Part shown: positions 39 to 31,014 of the stretch, piece by piece | Numbering within the stretch: position 1 is the stretch's first letter | How the letters are laid out: every line of letters starts with the position of its first letter | Origin: an uncultured Opitutaceae bacterium | GTDB taxonomy: Bacteria; Verrucomicrobiota; Verrucomicrobiia; Opitutales; Opitutaceae | DNA: 33,869 bases | Direction: 5' to 3' | Assembly (NCBI GenBank): GCA_937942145.1 | Contig: CALDFV010000066.1 | Span: 1-33,869 of the forward strand | The notes under the pieces: model-generated | What the model was told of the DNA's origin: nothing | What the model saw: only the letters and a program-made list of their open reading frames with translations | Database searches by the model: none | Translations under genes and position numbers: made by a program

Positions 39-794
39 ATGCCCGACTTTCGGAGTTACTGCCCAACTCTAAATCCAAACGTGCCGCAGATCACACTTTC
101 GGCTGATGAGTCGCATCACTTGATCTCGGTAAATCGCGCCCGTCAGGGGGACTCGGTCGTTATTTTTGACGGTTTTGGGAATGAATGGGCCTCAGAAATA
201 ACCATAGCCAATAAACGGGAGGCTGTCTTGGAGGGAAAAACCTTCAACCGCCACTCTCCTCCCCTTCAAAGAATCGCTTTAGCCCAGTCGATTCCAAAAT
301 CGAAGGGCTTGGAGAACATCATTCGCAAAGCAACGGAGCTGGGGGTTCAGGACATCTATCCTTTGATTTCCAATCGAACCGAAACCAAGATCCGCGATGG
401 CAAAGAAAAAACGAAGAACGAAAAATGGCTCTGGGCCGCAATTGAGGGAGCGAAACAGTCGGGAAACCCATTTATTCCCACCATTCATCCCGCTCAGCGT
501 TTGGATCTTTTTCTGGAAAAAGAATCGGGAAATTTCCAGCTGAAGCTCATTGCCTCCCTCGAAGAAGGCAGTACCACGCTTCACGGGCAAATTGAACAAG
601 CCGTTCTAAATCCCAACGCTTCGGGGATATTTCTAGTCGGCCCCGAAGGCGATTTCACGGAAGCCGAGTATGCCCGAATCCGCCAGGCAGATTTCCTCCC
701 AGTCTCACTGGGGCCCTATGTGCTGAAATGCGAAACCGCCGCGGTCAAAGCCCTTAGCATCTTGCAGCACGAATTTTCTAAATGGGCCCCCTGA
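39..794 (+). CDS. rsmE: 16S rRNA (uracil(1498)-N(3))-methyltransferase RsmE
   Basis: 251-aa ORF; IRKATELGVQDIYPLISNRTE, EGAKQSGNPFIPTI, GIFLVGPEGDFTEAEY and PVSLGPYVLKCETAAVKALSILQ match the RsmE/SPOUT family. Confidence 0.95.
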   Translation: MPDFRSYCPTLNPNVPQITLSADESHHLISVNRARQGDSVVIFDGFGNEWASEITIANKREAVLEGKTFNRHSPPLQRIALAQSIPKSKGLENIIRKATELGVQDIYPLISNRTETKIRDGKEKTKNEKWLWAAIEGAKQSGNPFIPTIHPAQRLDLFLEKESGNFQLKLIASLEEGSTTLHGQIEQAVLNPNASGIFLVGPEGDFTEAEYARIRQADFLPVSLGPYVLKCETAAVKALSILQHEFSKWAP

Positions 795-807
795 TAGGCG
801 CCATTGT

Positions 808-2394
808 CTACCAAACCATCAAACCGCCAGCGTAGGTAAACCCGGCCCCGACGGAACAGAAGATAATCTTGTCACCTTCTTCAAAAATCCCCTCTTCCGC
901 AGCCCATCCCAAAGCCATTGAGACGGAAGCAGCCGACGTGTTGCCATACTTCCCCACCGTAACGATGAATTTCTCGTAGGAGATTCCAACGCGCTTGCTG
1001 ACTGCTTTCAGGATTCGAGCGTTCGCCTGGTGAGGCACAATCCAGGATACATCTTCCTCGGAAAGCCCATGACGCTTCATAGCGCTTTCAATAATATCGG
1101 AAAACGCAAGCACGGCCCTTTTAAAAACCACTCCGCCGTCCAGCTGAATATAGAAAGAGTCCAGGCTGTCTCCCGGTTGTGGAATCGGATTCATCGCCCC
1201 ACCGCCTCTGCGGCAAATTGCCTCGGTGTACCGCGAGTCACCACTGAGTTCATGCCGATAAAAGCGATGGCCTCCTTTTTGCGGAGTCAATACTGCCGCT
1301 CCTGCTCCGTCGCCAAAAAGAAAGGCGGTTTCGTGATCTTTAGAGTTTGTGATTCGCGAAAGAATTTCCGCGGTAACCACGAGAGCATTTTTTGCCGTTC
1401 CTCCAATGATGAAAGCCCGTCCCACCTCGAGAGCGTAAAGCCAGCCCGAACAGGCCGCATTAAGATCAAAAGCCAGTGCCTGTCCTATGCCGAGCTCCTT
1501 GGCCAAGGCGCTCGCGGCTCCGGGAACCGGTTGATCGGGAAGAAGGGTCGCGACAATCACCGCATCGATGTCGTCCACTGACATACCGGCCATTTCCAGG
1601 GCCTTGTTTGTCGCCTCTGTAGCCAGGCTGGTAGCCGATTCACCATCGCTGATGATATAGCGCTGCTGAATTCCGGTTACCTTTTCAATCTCTTCGGCGG
1701 TCTTTCCAGGAAACTCTCTTAGAATCTCCTCGTTAGAACGGGCATTCTTGGGAACGGCATAGCCGATACCCGCTACGCACACCGTCTGAGCGGCAAGTGA
1801 GTCTACGCCCGCATCACTTGATGCGACTGTACTTTCCGGTGATGAACCTTTGTAGCGAGTCAAGTCGTCTCCGGTCACCCGACCTCCGGGTCCCGTACCC
1901 ACAATATCGAAAATCGTATCCGGATTCAAACCACGCTCTAGGGCAATCTTTCGAGCTCGAGGAGTCCAGCGAATCGCTCCCTTTTTATCTGATGGGGCCG
2001 GGGTCTCCGAGATCGTGCTTTCGGCGGTTGCGATTTCCGCCAGCGGGGCAACGAGCTTCTGCTTAGATTCGGTTTCCGGTGTTGATTCGGAATCCGAGGA
2101 TCCCGAATCGGTTCCGGGGTCCACTGCTAAGTGGCTCATGGATTGATCTTCTGTCTCTATCCGGAAAAAAGGAACCCCCACTTTTAGGATGTCTCCCGCG
2201 CGACAGCAAATCTCACGAATAACCCCATCACAGGGAGACTCGAAATCGAATATTGATTTGTCGCTTTCCAGCTCGGCTAGCTTCTCGCCTTTAGCGACTG
2301 CACTTCCCGCCTCGCAAAAAAGATCGATCAACGTTATTTCGTTTACCGTCGCGCCCATCGATGGGATGGGAACTTCTATCAGCTGCTTCGCCAT
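808..2394 (-). CDS. Lipoyl domain - peripheral subunit-binding (E3-binding) domain - beta-ketoacyl-ACP synthase III fusion
   Basis: aa ~1-82 lipoyl domain (VPIPSMGATVNEITL...LAELESDKSIFDFESPCDGVI, candidate lipoyl-Lys K46); aa ~141-181 PSBD (IRWTPRARKIALERGLNPDTIFDIVGTGPGGRVTGDDLTRY); aa ~204-528 KAS III with Cys (LNAACSGWLYAL), His (PHQANARI) and Asn (GKYGNTSAAS). One uninterrupted frame. Confidence 0.93.
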   Translation of the reverse strand: MAKQLIEVPIPSMGATVNEITLIDLFCEAGSAVAKGEKLAELESDKSIFDFESPCDGVIREICCRAGDILKVGVPFFRIETEDQSMSHLAVDPGTDSGSSDSESTPETESKQKLVAPLAEIATAESTISETPAPSDKKGAIRWTPRARKIALERGLNPDTIFDIVGTGPGGRVTGDDLTRYKGSSPESTVASSDAGVDSLAAQTVCVAGIGYAVPKNARSNEEILREFPGKTAEEIEKVTGIQQRYIISDGESATSLATEATNKALEMAGMSVDDIDAVIVATLLPDQPVPGAASALAKELGIGQALAFDLNAACSGWLYALEVGRAFIIGGTAKNALVVTAEILSRITNSKDHETAFLFGDGAGAAVLTPQKGGHRFYRHELSGDSRYTEAICRRGGGAMNPIPQPGDSLDSFYIQLDGGVVFKRAVLAFSDIIESAMKRHGLSEEDVSWIVPHQANARILKAVSKRVGISYEKFIVTVGKYGNTSAASVSMALGWAAEEGIFEEGDKIIFCSVGAGFTYAGGLMVW

Positions 2395-2459: not shown

Positions 2460-4112
<1,653 letters not shown>

Positions 4113-26421: not shown

Positions 26422-28173
26422 CTATCCCAACTTTGTCATCGCTCCCACACCCGTAATGACTTCATCTAAACTCCTAATTTGCTCAGAATCAAAATAACTA
26501 TTCACTTTCGCTATGATCTGTTGAAGCAACCCATCTGGGCAGGAGGCGCCTCCCGTAATGAGGATTTTCATAGGGGCGTCTCGCATCGGCAAAAACGCTC
26601 GCGTCTCCATCCGCCCTTGTTGCGGGTTCTTTGGATCGTAAGGAAATATAAAATGCTCTATCTGGGACCGGGATAAAATATTCGACTCTGACTGAATGTA
26701 GAAAGCTCGTTCTCCAAACGCTTCCTCACATATTCGATACAGCTGATACGTGTTGGAACTGTTCTTTCCTCCCACAACAATCGCAACGTCCACCGGTTGC
26801 TTTATTGCCTGGGCCAAAGCGTCTTGGTTTACTTGGGTGGCGTAACAAAGGGTGTCTCCCTTGCTGCTCATCGCCATATGCTCCTCGATATGCGCTCTGC
26901 CGTATCGGTCCTCCAAAGCGGACTCGAGAAGCTCGATAATTCTTAGTGTCTCATTGCGAAGGAGAGTAGTCTGATTGACGACTGCCAATTTTGCCAAGTC
27001 GCCGCTCAAATCGAAGCCTTCACTGCAACGGGCTTTAAAGGGTAAAAACAACTCCACCTTCTCGGTTTCATTATCCGCCTTTATCACCTCTGCCAGCAAT
27101 GCCGCTTCCTTGAGATCCCGGACGACTATGGAGGGCGCATACTTCGAACTGTTTGAAAAGGTTGCCTTCGTCTCCTCGTGCTCCGCTTTTCCGTGGATCA
27201 CTACTGTGAACCCCTTTTGTCCGAAGCGCTTGGCCGCTTTCCAGACTTTTTCCACGAGCATGCAAGTAGCATCGTACGCATTGAGTGGGAGTCCCCGCTC
27301 GATCAATCTCAATTTGTCTTCGTCCCGTGCGCCGAAAGCCGGAATAATCACGATGTCCTCATCAGTCACTGAATCCCAATAGGCTACGTCGGTCTCAGGA
27401 TCCACCACAGACACGCCCTTGTCGCTCTGCAAGTAACGAAGCCCCCTCCGTCTCAAATCTTCATTCACAAACGGATTGTGTATTAGCTCGCTGAGCATGA
27501 ATACCCGCTTGTCCGGATTCGACGCGATCGTCTCGTACGCGCGTTCTATCGCATTCTGAACACCGAGACAAAAACCGAAATGACTCGGAAGCAGATACTC
27601 AACCGCTCCAAAATCAAGCCTCGCCGGATCAGCCGCCGAACGCTCTTTCGTCCGCTTGACTGCCTTGATCGCATCACAAAGCGCACTGTGGTACAAGGCC
27701 ATTGAGGAGGCGTCGACGTGATAAACGTCTCTGTTTCTCTGCTTGTCCGTTCGAAATCGGTATATGTAGTCCGTCTCTTTGAAGTTCAGGTACGGAATCC
27801 GAATTGCGTGCGCTCGAATCACCGGCCCATCTTCGAGAAGCTCTGCTGAGAGTCTTCCACCCTCTTTTCCATACGCTTCAATCGTTCTCAAAGAAGCAGT
27901 TTCGCAGCCTTCAGCCGCCAACACTGGGGGAATATCGCAACCCTTCACGTTCGAAAAGAAGACATAGTGGTTCCCGTTTCGGCAAATGGCTACCGGCACC
28001 CCCGATTCGATCTTCTGAAAAAGTGAATTTCCATTGAGTCGTTCAAGCACGTATCCGTCCCGATCTGCCCTTTGAGCGCGTCTCAATAGCAACTTGTTGT
28101 TCTCCAAAAACAAGTAGAGTCGATGATCGGGATTCGATGGGTCGTAGACCGGCAATTCACTCTGTGAGATCAT
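26422..28173 (-). CDS. ispH: 4-hydroxy-3-methylbut-2-enyl diphosphate reductase with ~190-aa N-terminal extension
   Basis: C-terminal ~390 aa IspH-like: LPSHFGFCLGVQNAIERA, YDATCMLVEKVWK, HGKAEHEETKATFSNSS, VNQTTL, KGDTLCYATQVNQDAL, VVGGKNSSNTYQLYRIC, ITGGASCPDGLLQQII; residues 1-190 unassigned. Confidence 0.9.
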   Translation of the reverse strand: MISQSELPVYDPSNPDHRLYLFLENNKLLLRRAQRADRDGYVLERLNGNSLFQKIESGVPVAICRNGNHYVFFSNVKGCDIPPVLAAEGCETASLRTIEAYGKEGGRLSAELLEDGPVIRAHAIRIPYLNFKETDYIYRFRTDKQRNRDVYHVDASSMALYHSALCDAIKAVKRTKERSAADPARLDFGAVEYLLPSHFGFCLGVQNAIERAYETIASNPDKRVFMLSELIHNPFVNEDLRRRGLRYLQSDKGVSVVDPETDVAYWDSVTDEDIVIIPAFGARDEDKLRLIERGLPLNAYDATCMLVEKVWKAAKRFGQKGFTVVIHGKAEHEETKATFSNSSKYAPSIVVRDLKEAALLAEVIKADNETEKVELFLPFKARCSEGFDLSGDLAKLAVVNQTTLLRNETLRIIELLESALEDRYGRAHIEEHMAMSSKGDTLCYATQVNQDALAQAIKQPVDVAIVVGGKNSSNTYQLYRICEEAFGERAFYIQSESNILSRSQIEHFIFPYDPKNPQQGRMETRAFLPMRDAPMKILITGGASCPDGLLQQIIAKVNSYFDSEQIRSLDEVITGVGAMTKLG

Positions 28174-30141: not shown

Positions 30142-31014
30142 CTACCATTTCAGCGTCGGCGGCAGGTACTTAGCAATCAGCTCTTCATAGTAGGGCTTTA
30201 GCTCACTCCAAACAGGGGCTTCAGGACACTTGGTGTACAGATCGAACGGATTGAACCGCTTTACCCAAGGAAGCATTTTCCGGTCATGATCGTCGAGCAG
30301 GTACTCGTATTCGCCCTCTCGATGCCAAGCATAAAAACTATGGTAGCGGATCATGTACAAAGCGGGATCGGGCAAATAGTCTTTAACGAGATGATACATG
30401 TACTCGTCGTGTCCCCAGGACATGTATACGTTTCTCAGTCCACAGCCTTCTTCGTAGATTCCTAGACGCGTATTGTATCGGGAGTCGTTGAAGTCCGGAT
30501 TGAGCTCGAAAAATTCTGGGTAGACAATCTTATCACTATACTGGCATCCGACGGGAAAAGTGTCTCCCACCACGGCCCATTGGGGTTCGCCAAAAATGCA
30601 TAGCAGTTTTCCTAAATCATGTATCAGTCCAACCAGAACAAACCAGTCCTCGCAACCGCGGGAACGAATCGACTCGGAAGTCTGTAGCAGGTGCTGGATT
30701 TGCGGCAGGTCAATATCCGGATCGGAGTCATCGACGAGCGTGTTGAGCAATTCGATCGCCTGTATGATCGTCATTTCTTTCCGTTCTCGTTTTTCTCCTA
30801 GAAACTCTTCCCGCTTCTTCATGACGAAATCGAAAGACTGGTGTTTGTGATTCAGGCGATAAAACTCCCTCACGCAATCCCTAGCCGGATCATCGTAATT
30901 GCGGTAGTCTTCCTTCTTTCTGGATTCAGGTTCCGGATAGGTGGCTGTTTCTACGAAATCCTCCCATTGGTCCAGGTTCTCGAGGGGATTTGATTCGGGT
31001 TTTTGTGAGTTCAT
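30142..31014 (-). CDS. Myo-inositol oxygenase (MIOX) family protein
   Basis: 290 aa; DWFVLVGLIHDLGKLL, EPQWAVVGDTFPVGC, YNTRLGIYEEGCGLRNVYMSWGHDEYMYHLVKD, MIRYHSFYAWHREGEYEYLLDDHDR, FNPFDLYTK. Confidence 0.93.
   Translation of the reverse strand: MNSQKPESNPLENLDQWEDFVETATYPEPESRKKEDYRNYDDPARDCVREFYRLNHKHQSFDFVMKKREEFLGEKRERKEMTIIQAIELLNTLVDDSDPDIDLPQIQHLLQTSESIRSRGCEDWFVLVGLIHDLGKLLCIFGEPQWAVVGDTFPVGCQYSDKIVYPEFFELNPDFNDSRYNTRLGIYEEGCGLRNVYMSWGHDEYMYHLVKDYLPDPALYMIRYHSFYAWHREGEYEYLLDDHDRKMLPWVKRFNPFDLYTKCPEAPVWSELKPYYEELIAKYLPPTLKW

Follow-up and report, generated by a model that had tools for sequence, protein, structure and literature searches.

What does a protein do that starts like the E2 subunit of a 2-oxoacid dehydrogenase complex and ends as a fatty-acid condensing enzyme? 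This question is raised by a gene in the window analysed here, a 33,869-nucleotide stretch of DNA from an uncultured Opitutaceae bacterium (contig CALDFV010000066.1). The gene lies on the minus strand at positions 808..2394 and encodes a lipoyl-PSBD-KAS III fusion of 528 amino acids, identified by its open reading frame and translation, by domain matches and by 14 other full-length homologues. The frame on the opposite (+) strand at 808-2394 is interrupted by many stops. At the N-terminus, a lipoyl domain (residues 7-79; 2158..2376, minus strand; Pfam Biotin_lipoyl PF00364, 2.3e-13) carries the acceptor lysine K46 in the motif ESDKS. It is followed by a peripheral subunit-binding domain (PSBD) with an invariant WTP motif (residues 144-178; 1861..1965, minus strand; Pfam E3_binding PF02817, 1.9e-9) and by a KAS III domain (residues 204-528; 811..1785, minus strand), which matched NCBIfam PRK09352, beta-ketoacyl-ACP synthase 3, at 7.5e-96. 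Within the KAS III part, Pfam recognised ACP_syn_III at residues 309-384 (E 2e-25) and ACP_syn_III_C at residues 440-528 (E 3e-29). All four Pfam matches exceeded their gathering cut-offs, and a chance open reading frame was ruled out because every domain scored above cut-off.

The C-terminal part showed the hallmarks of KAS III/FabH, with the thiolase-fold domains ACP_syn_III and ACP_syn_III_C and a Cys-His-Asn triad formed by C315, H455 and N485, the aligned counterparts of E. coli FabH C112, H244 and N274 (reference sequence checked against PDB 1HN9). The N-terminal part showed those of an E2, namely a lipoyl domain with a DK lysine and a PSBD, and the ESDK and WTP[RK] motifs were each found in 40/40 lipoyl-PSBD sequences counted. 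The catalytic acyltransferase core of an E2 (2-oxoacid_dh, PF00198) gave no Pfam match in the 528-aa protein, and the fusion is not among the PF00198 places listed across the window genome. The first-pass annotation had described, without giving a strand, one continuous 528-aa lipoyl, PSBD and KAS III frame, placed the catalytic Cys 315 at about residue 112 of the KAS domain, as in FabH, and seen no E2 acyltransferase core; the frame was borne out by the open reading frame, Pfam and NCBIfam, the cysteine by the alignment to E. coli FabH, and the missing core by the lack of a PF00198 match. The E2 subunits of PDH, OGDH and BCKDH have an N-terminal lipoyl domain, a flexible linker and a PSBD in the same order as the fusion, but they end in the PF00198 CoA acyltransferase core, whereas the fusion has KAS III as its catalytic core. 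An AlphaFold run on a 15-row alignment of the fusion gave a mean pLDDT of 57, too low for the model to be of use.

When one genome per species was scanned, the 14 other full-length homologues of the fusion were found at 60-95% identity, and one further homologue was interrupted by a run of unknown bases. All were recorded as Opitutales, Opitutaceae or otherwise Verrucomicrobiota, and they included isolate assemblies (DG1235 and two Pelagicoccus) plus a record titled as a single MAG chromosome. Because there are 14 other full-length homologues, isolates among them, the fusion is no assembly artefact, and a misassembly or frameshift joining two genes was ruled out. The first-pass annotation had named misassembly and the lack of a homologous fusion in relatives as grounds for giving up its reading; both were examined and neither was found. 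Among 390 Verrucomicrobiota genomes, KAS IIIs of the fusion lineage (57% identity and more) were restricted to the GTDB family to which the window belongs, and the remaining genomes had canonical FabH at about 33-42% identity. The best matches in 398 Bacteroidota genomes did not include a fusion-lineage KAS III. One genome with the usual fusion also has a second, divergent one (about 61% identity; L105:7405-8982, G298:C66), in which C112 is retained and R151 is replaced by Pro (FabH numbering), and among the genes compared neither pyrG nor kdsA adjoins it.

The surroundings of the gene were also compared among relatives. Its conserved upstream neighbour, about 65 bp away, is pyrG (2460..4088, minus strand; NCBIfam CTP synthase, synteny), and the lipoyl gene is separated from pyrG by kdsA in many relatives. 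On the other side stands an rsmE-like 16S rRNA methyltransferase gene (39..794, plus strand; NCBIfam TIGR00046 above cut-off, synteny), which is convergent with the fusion and often with the lipoyl gene across relatives. Most KAS III carriers have the fused form. In five relatives (G016, G106, G168, G292 and G360) the protein is split into adjacent genes of the same order and strand, encoding a lipoyl-PSBD of about 150-165 aa and a KAS III of about 330 aa, so the pairing of lipoyl-PSBD with KAS III is independent of fusion. In 14 genomes the lipoyl-PSBD gene stands alone at the pyrG-kdsA locus, without an orthologous KAS III. In a midpoint-rooted pyrG tree, fused forms occurred in both deep branches, and the split and lipoyl-only forms fell within one of these branches. 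The fusion therefore looks old, which rules out a recent oddity, and fission and KAS III losses likely came later, a polarity that depends on the midpoint root.

We propose that the protein works as a lipoyl-primed condensing enzyme that initiates chains, being E2-like with its acyltransferase core replaced by KAS III and fed by an alpha-beta E1 of the same genome, and we put the probability of this reading at about 0.64. The E1 would oxidatively decarboxylate a branched 2-oxo acid and load the acyl group on lipoyl-K46, with the PSBD docking the alpha-beta E1 and/or E3. The lipoyl arm would then reach the KAS III tunnel and pass the acyl group to C315, after which condensation with malonyl-ACP by KAS III would yield the first branched 3-oxoacyl-ACP, and E3 (Lpd) would re-oxidise the dihydrolipoyl group. 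By this route iso and anteiso fatty acids would be begun without free acyl-CoA. That branched fatty acids have a CoA-independent start, running from E1 over the lipoyl arm to a KAS III no longer binding CoA, with the dehydrogenase complex and FAS sharing the arm, we judge somewhat better than an even bet. In cultured Opitutales members, anteiso-C15:0 and iso-C15:0 dominate the fatty acids (PMC12193912, PMC5303756), and in the known route the BKD complex makes branched acyl-CoA for FabH (PMC6461809).

The candidate partner was found among the dehydrogenase genes of the window genome. NCBIfam matches or linkage identified E1 alpha, E1 beta and E2 of a pyruvate complex as well as E1 and E2 of an oxoglutarate complex; in addition, this genome has a third E1, in which alpha and beta parts are joined in a single chain of 685 aa (G000, C169:465-2519). 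A catalytic E2 gene was not found adjoining the alpha-beta E1, whereas the pyruvate- and oxoglutarate-type E1s adjoin theirs. The check suggested by the first-pass annotation, a look for E1 genes and other fabH copies in the genome, yielded an E2-less alpha-beta E1 and a canonical FabH. The alpha-beta E1 was present in every KAS III-carrying genome tested. Across 37 family genomes, the alpha-beta E1 and the E2-core-less lipoyl-PSBD, whether fused, split or alone, occurred together in 35 and were jointly missing from two, G024 and G283 (Fisher p 0.0015, uncorrected for kinship), and G283 has congeners in which both are retained. The tie to an E1 that goes with an E2 was thus seen as co-occurrence, linkage being loose: the fusion and the alpha-beta E1 are about 12-18 kb apart in the fusion's genus and one near genus, and far apart elsewhere. 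In six contexts compared, the alpha-beta E1 neighbours kdsC and an lptB-containing LPS-export locus, followed by hprK (L276:10180-15760, matching parts of L272-L275 and L277). Envelope genes thus surround both halves of the proposed system, kdsC/lptB near the E1 and pyrG-kdsA near the lipoyl gene.

The best solved relatives of both halves of the alpha-beta E1 are branched-chain-type E1s, and the B. stearothermophilus pyruvate E1 matched the alpha half slightly more weakly than the human branched-chain E1 did. These matches suggest a branched-chain type of substrate, with pyruvate-type E1s not far behind. The CoA-free mechanism might instead deliver an acetyl group, with pyruvate as its source, or the product of some other 2-oxo acid, or it might make a specialised lipid, for instance an acyl chain of lipid A, instead of bulk branched fatty acids. 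In favour are the near-equal pyruvate E1 match and the position of the E1 near kdsC and the LPS-export locus and of the lipoyl gene near pyrG-kdsA. Even so, we consider this unlikely, as both E1 halves match branched-chain-type enzymes best, the acids of cultured members are mostly branched (PMC12193912, PMC5303756), and the window genome has a separate pyruvate dehydrogenase.

In FabH, CoA is held by Thr28, Trp32, Arg36 and Arg151 (PMC4606726). These sites were compared between 34 lipoyl-linked KAS IIIs, both fused and split ones, and 47 canonical FabHs, most of them from members of the same family and phylum. All four residues were invariant in 47/47 canonical FabHs and replaced in 34/34 linked enzymes, Trp32 by Glu (32/34), Arg151 by His (33/34), Arg36 by Val or Leu, and Thr28 by Lys, Arg, Met or Glu. 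In the fusion, K231, E235 and V239 occupy the positions of Thr28, Trp32 and Arg36, and H354 (codon 1333..1335, minus strand; site alignment) stands at the place of the CoA-adenine-stacking Arg151; the CoA-primer contacts T28/W32/R36/R151 of a KAS III are thus missing from it. C112, H244, N274, A246, N247, R249 and G209 were retained in all 34 linked enzymes, and C112, H244, N274, N247 and R249 were invariant in both sets alike. The ACP-docking residues were present as well, with R249 in 34/34, K214 in 33/34 (Arg in the other), Lys or Arg at 256 and Arg at 257. Because 23 of 81 canonically fixed positions are lost in them, the linked KAS IIIs are diverged enzymes. Judged from the sequences, loss of the nucleotide-side contacts together with retention of the pantetheine/ACP side would be the pattern expected of a lipoyl-fed KAS III that condenses with malonyl-ACP.

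It could be argued that acyl-CoA or acyl-ACP still primes the KAS III and that the lipoyl-PSBD only tethers it to a dehydrogenase complex for acyl-CoA released nearby. FabH normally condenses acyl-CoA with malonyl-ACP, B. subtilis FabH takes branched acyl-CoA made by BKD (PMC6461809), and the linked enzymes keep the catalytic triad and the pantetheine-side residues N247 and G209. Loss of the four CoA residues is no proof against the use of CoA esters, as other KAS III families may lack them and use CoA. We nevertheless regard this explanation as rather improbable, because the four contacts are lost in every linked enzyme, the lipoyl-accepting ESDK motif, which mere tethering would not need, is kept in 40/40 sequences, and 19 of the 21 KAS III carriers of the family have no more than two E2 cores, which in the window genome belong to the pyruvate and oxoglutarate complexes, a third catalytic E2 for a branched CoA ester not being found in these 19. 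Direct lipoyl feeding is favoured because an E2-less E1 co-occurs, the CoA contacts are lost, and cultured Opitutales are rich in branched acids although most carriers have no more than two E2 cores; the comparative evidence favours the route that the first-pass annotation had suggested, in which acyl groups would pass from E1 over the lipoyl-lysine to the KAS III cysteine.

Position 87 also differed between the two kinds of enzyme. It is Val or Ile in 34/34 linked enzymes and Phe in the canonical FabH of the window genome, as in E. coli, and from the residues involved a wider primer pocket would fit the linked enzymes. In canonical FabHs (loci L278-L307 and others), this position is Phe in the window's genus and in Pelagicoccus, mostly Met in other carriers of the fused or split form, and mostly Leu, Ile or Val in lipoyl-only genomes, which possibly reflects a wider primer pocket of canonical FabH where the KAS III was lost.

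Counting against lipoyl-primed condensation, 14 relatives keep the alpha-beta E1 and the lipoyl-PSBD without an orthologous KAS III, so some further acyl acceptor must serve the pair there, whether original or acquired. In five of these 14 lipoyl-only genomes a third E2 is entirely absent, so some other acceptor must exist in them. That the lipoyl-PSBD is an accessory arm carrying acyl groups from the alpha-beta E1 to the pyruvate or oxoglutarate E2 cores, with acyl-CoA as the product and KAS III secondary, would suit these 14 relatives and the five without a third E2, but it is very doubtful, since it leaves unexplained why this particular KAS III is repeatedly paired, fused or adjacent, with the lipoyl-PSBD and why the KAS III has lost its CoA contacts, and the pyrG tree suggests an old fusion with later KAS III loss.

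A 2-oxoacid dehydrogenase that unites E1 alpha, E1 beta, a lipoyl domain and an E2 core, without PSBD, in one chain of about 1050 aa was observed at L314:775-3924 (G129) and at L315, L316 and L317. It is present in 11/16 KAS III-less and 2/21 KAS III-carrying family genomes (Fisher p 0.0003). As a replacement for KAS III it was rejected, since the pattern fails kinship correction with only 3 independent pairs. Within the lipoyl-only genomes it is present in 9/14 and absent in 5/14, and in those nine it could form acyl-CoA unaided.

Several known systems resemble parts of the proposed one. Acetoin dehydrogenase E2 proteins of the AcoC type (NCBIfam PRK14875) consist of a lipoyl domain and an alpha/beta hydrolase-type domain; they offer an earlier example of a lipoyl domain attached to a catalytic fold other than that of an E2, but their fold and chemistry are different and AcoC is no condensing enzyme. 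Naphthyridinomycin and quinocarcin synthesis use an E1 together with lipoyl/ACP proteins (NapB/NapD, QncN/QncL), a precedent for a lipoyl group handing an acyl unit made by a dehydrogenase on to a biosynthetic carrier. There the acceptor is a peptide-synthesis carrier protein, whereas in the fusion it would be a fatty-acid-starting KAS III. The branched-chain FabH and BKD of B. subtilis share with the fusion family the condensing chemistry (acyl-enzyme plus malonyl-ACP, Cys-His-Asn) and the type of 2-oxo-acid source (PMC6461809). B. subtilis goes through free acyl-CoA by way of a catalytic E2, whereas the fusion family has lipoyl and PSBD on or beside the KAS III and lacks both the tested CoA-contact residues and an E2 core. 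The folds are known and the combination of fusion, lost CoA contacts and a co-occurring E2-less E1 appears to be new, no description of such a fusion having been found in the openly accessible journal papers searched. If the proposal is true, keto-acid dehydrogenases and fatty-acid synthesis would be joined without the textbook acyl-CoA intermediate, and a lipoyl carrier would prove able to feed a KAS III. The proposal would also explain the branched starters of branched-acid-rich Opitutaceae without an evident branched-chain CoA-forming E2, and would provide a compact module for channelled branched-chain priming.

Two further genes of the window are worth recording, both on the minus strand. 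One encodes a 583-aa IspH/LytB protein (26422-28173), in which about 195 residues ahead of the LytB domain matched no Pfam family. The other encodes a myo-inositol oxygenase (30142-31014; PF05153, 1.9e-109); this family is known chiefly from eukaryotes.
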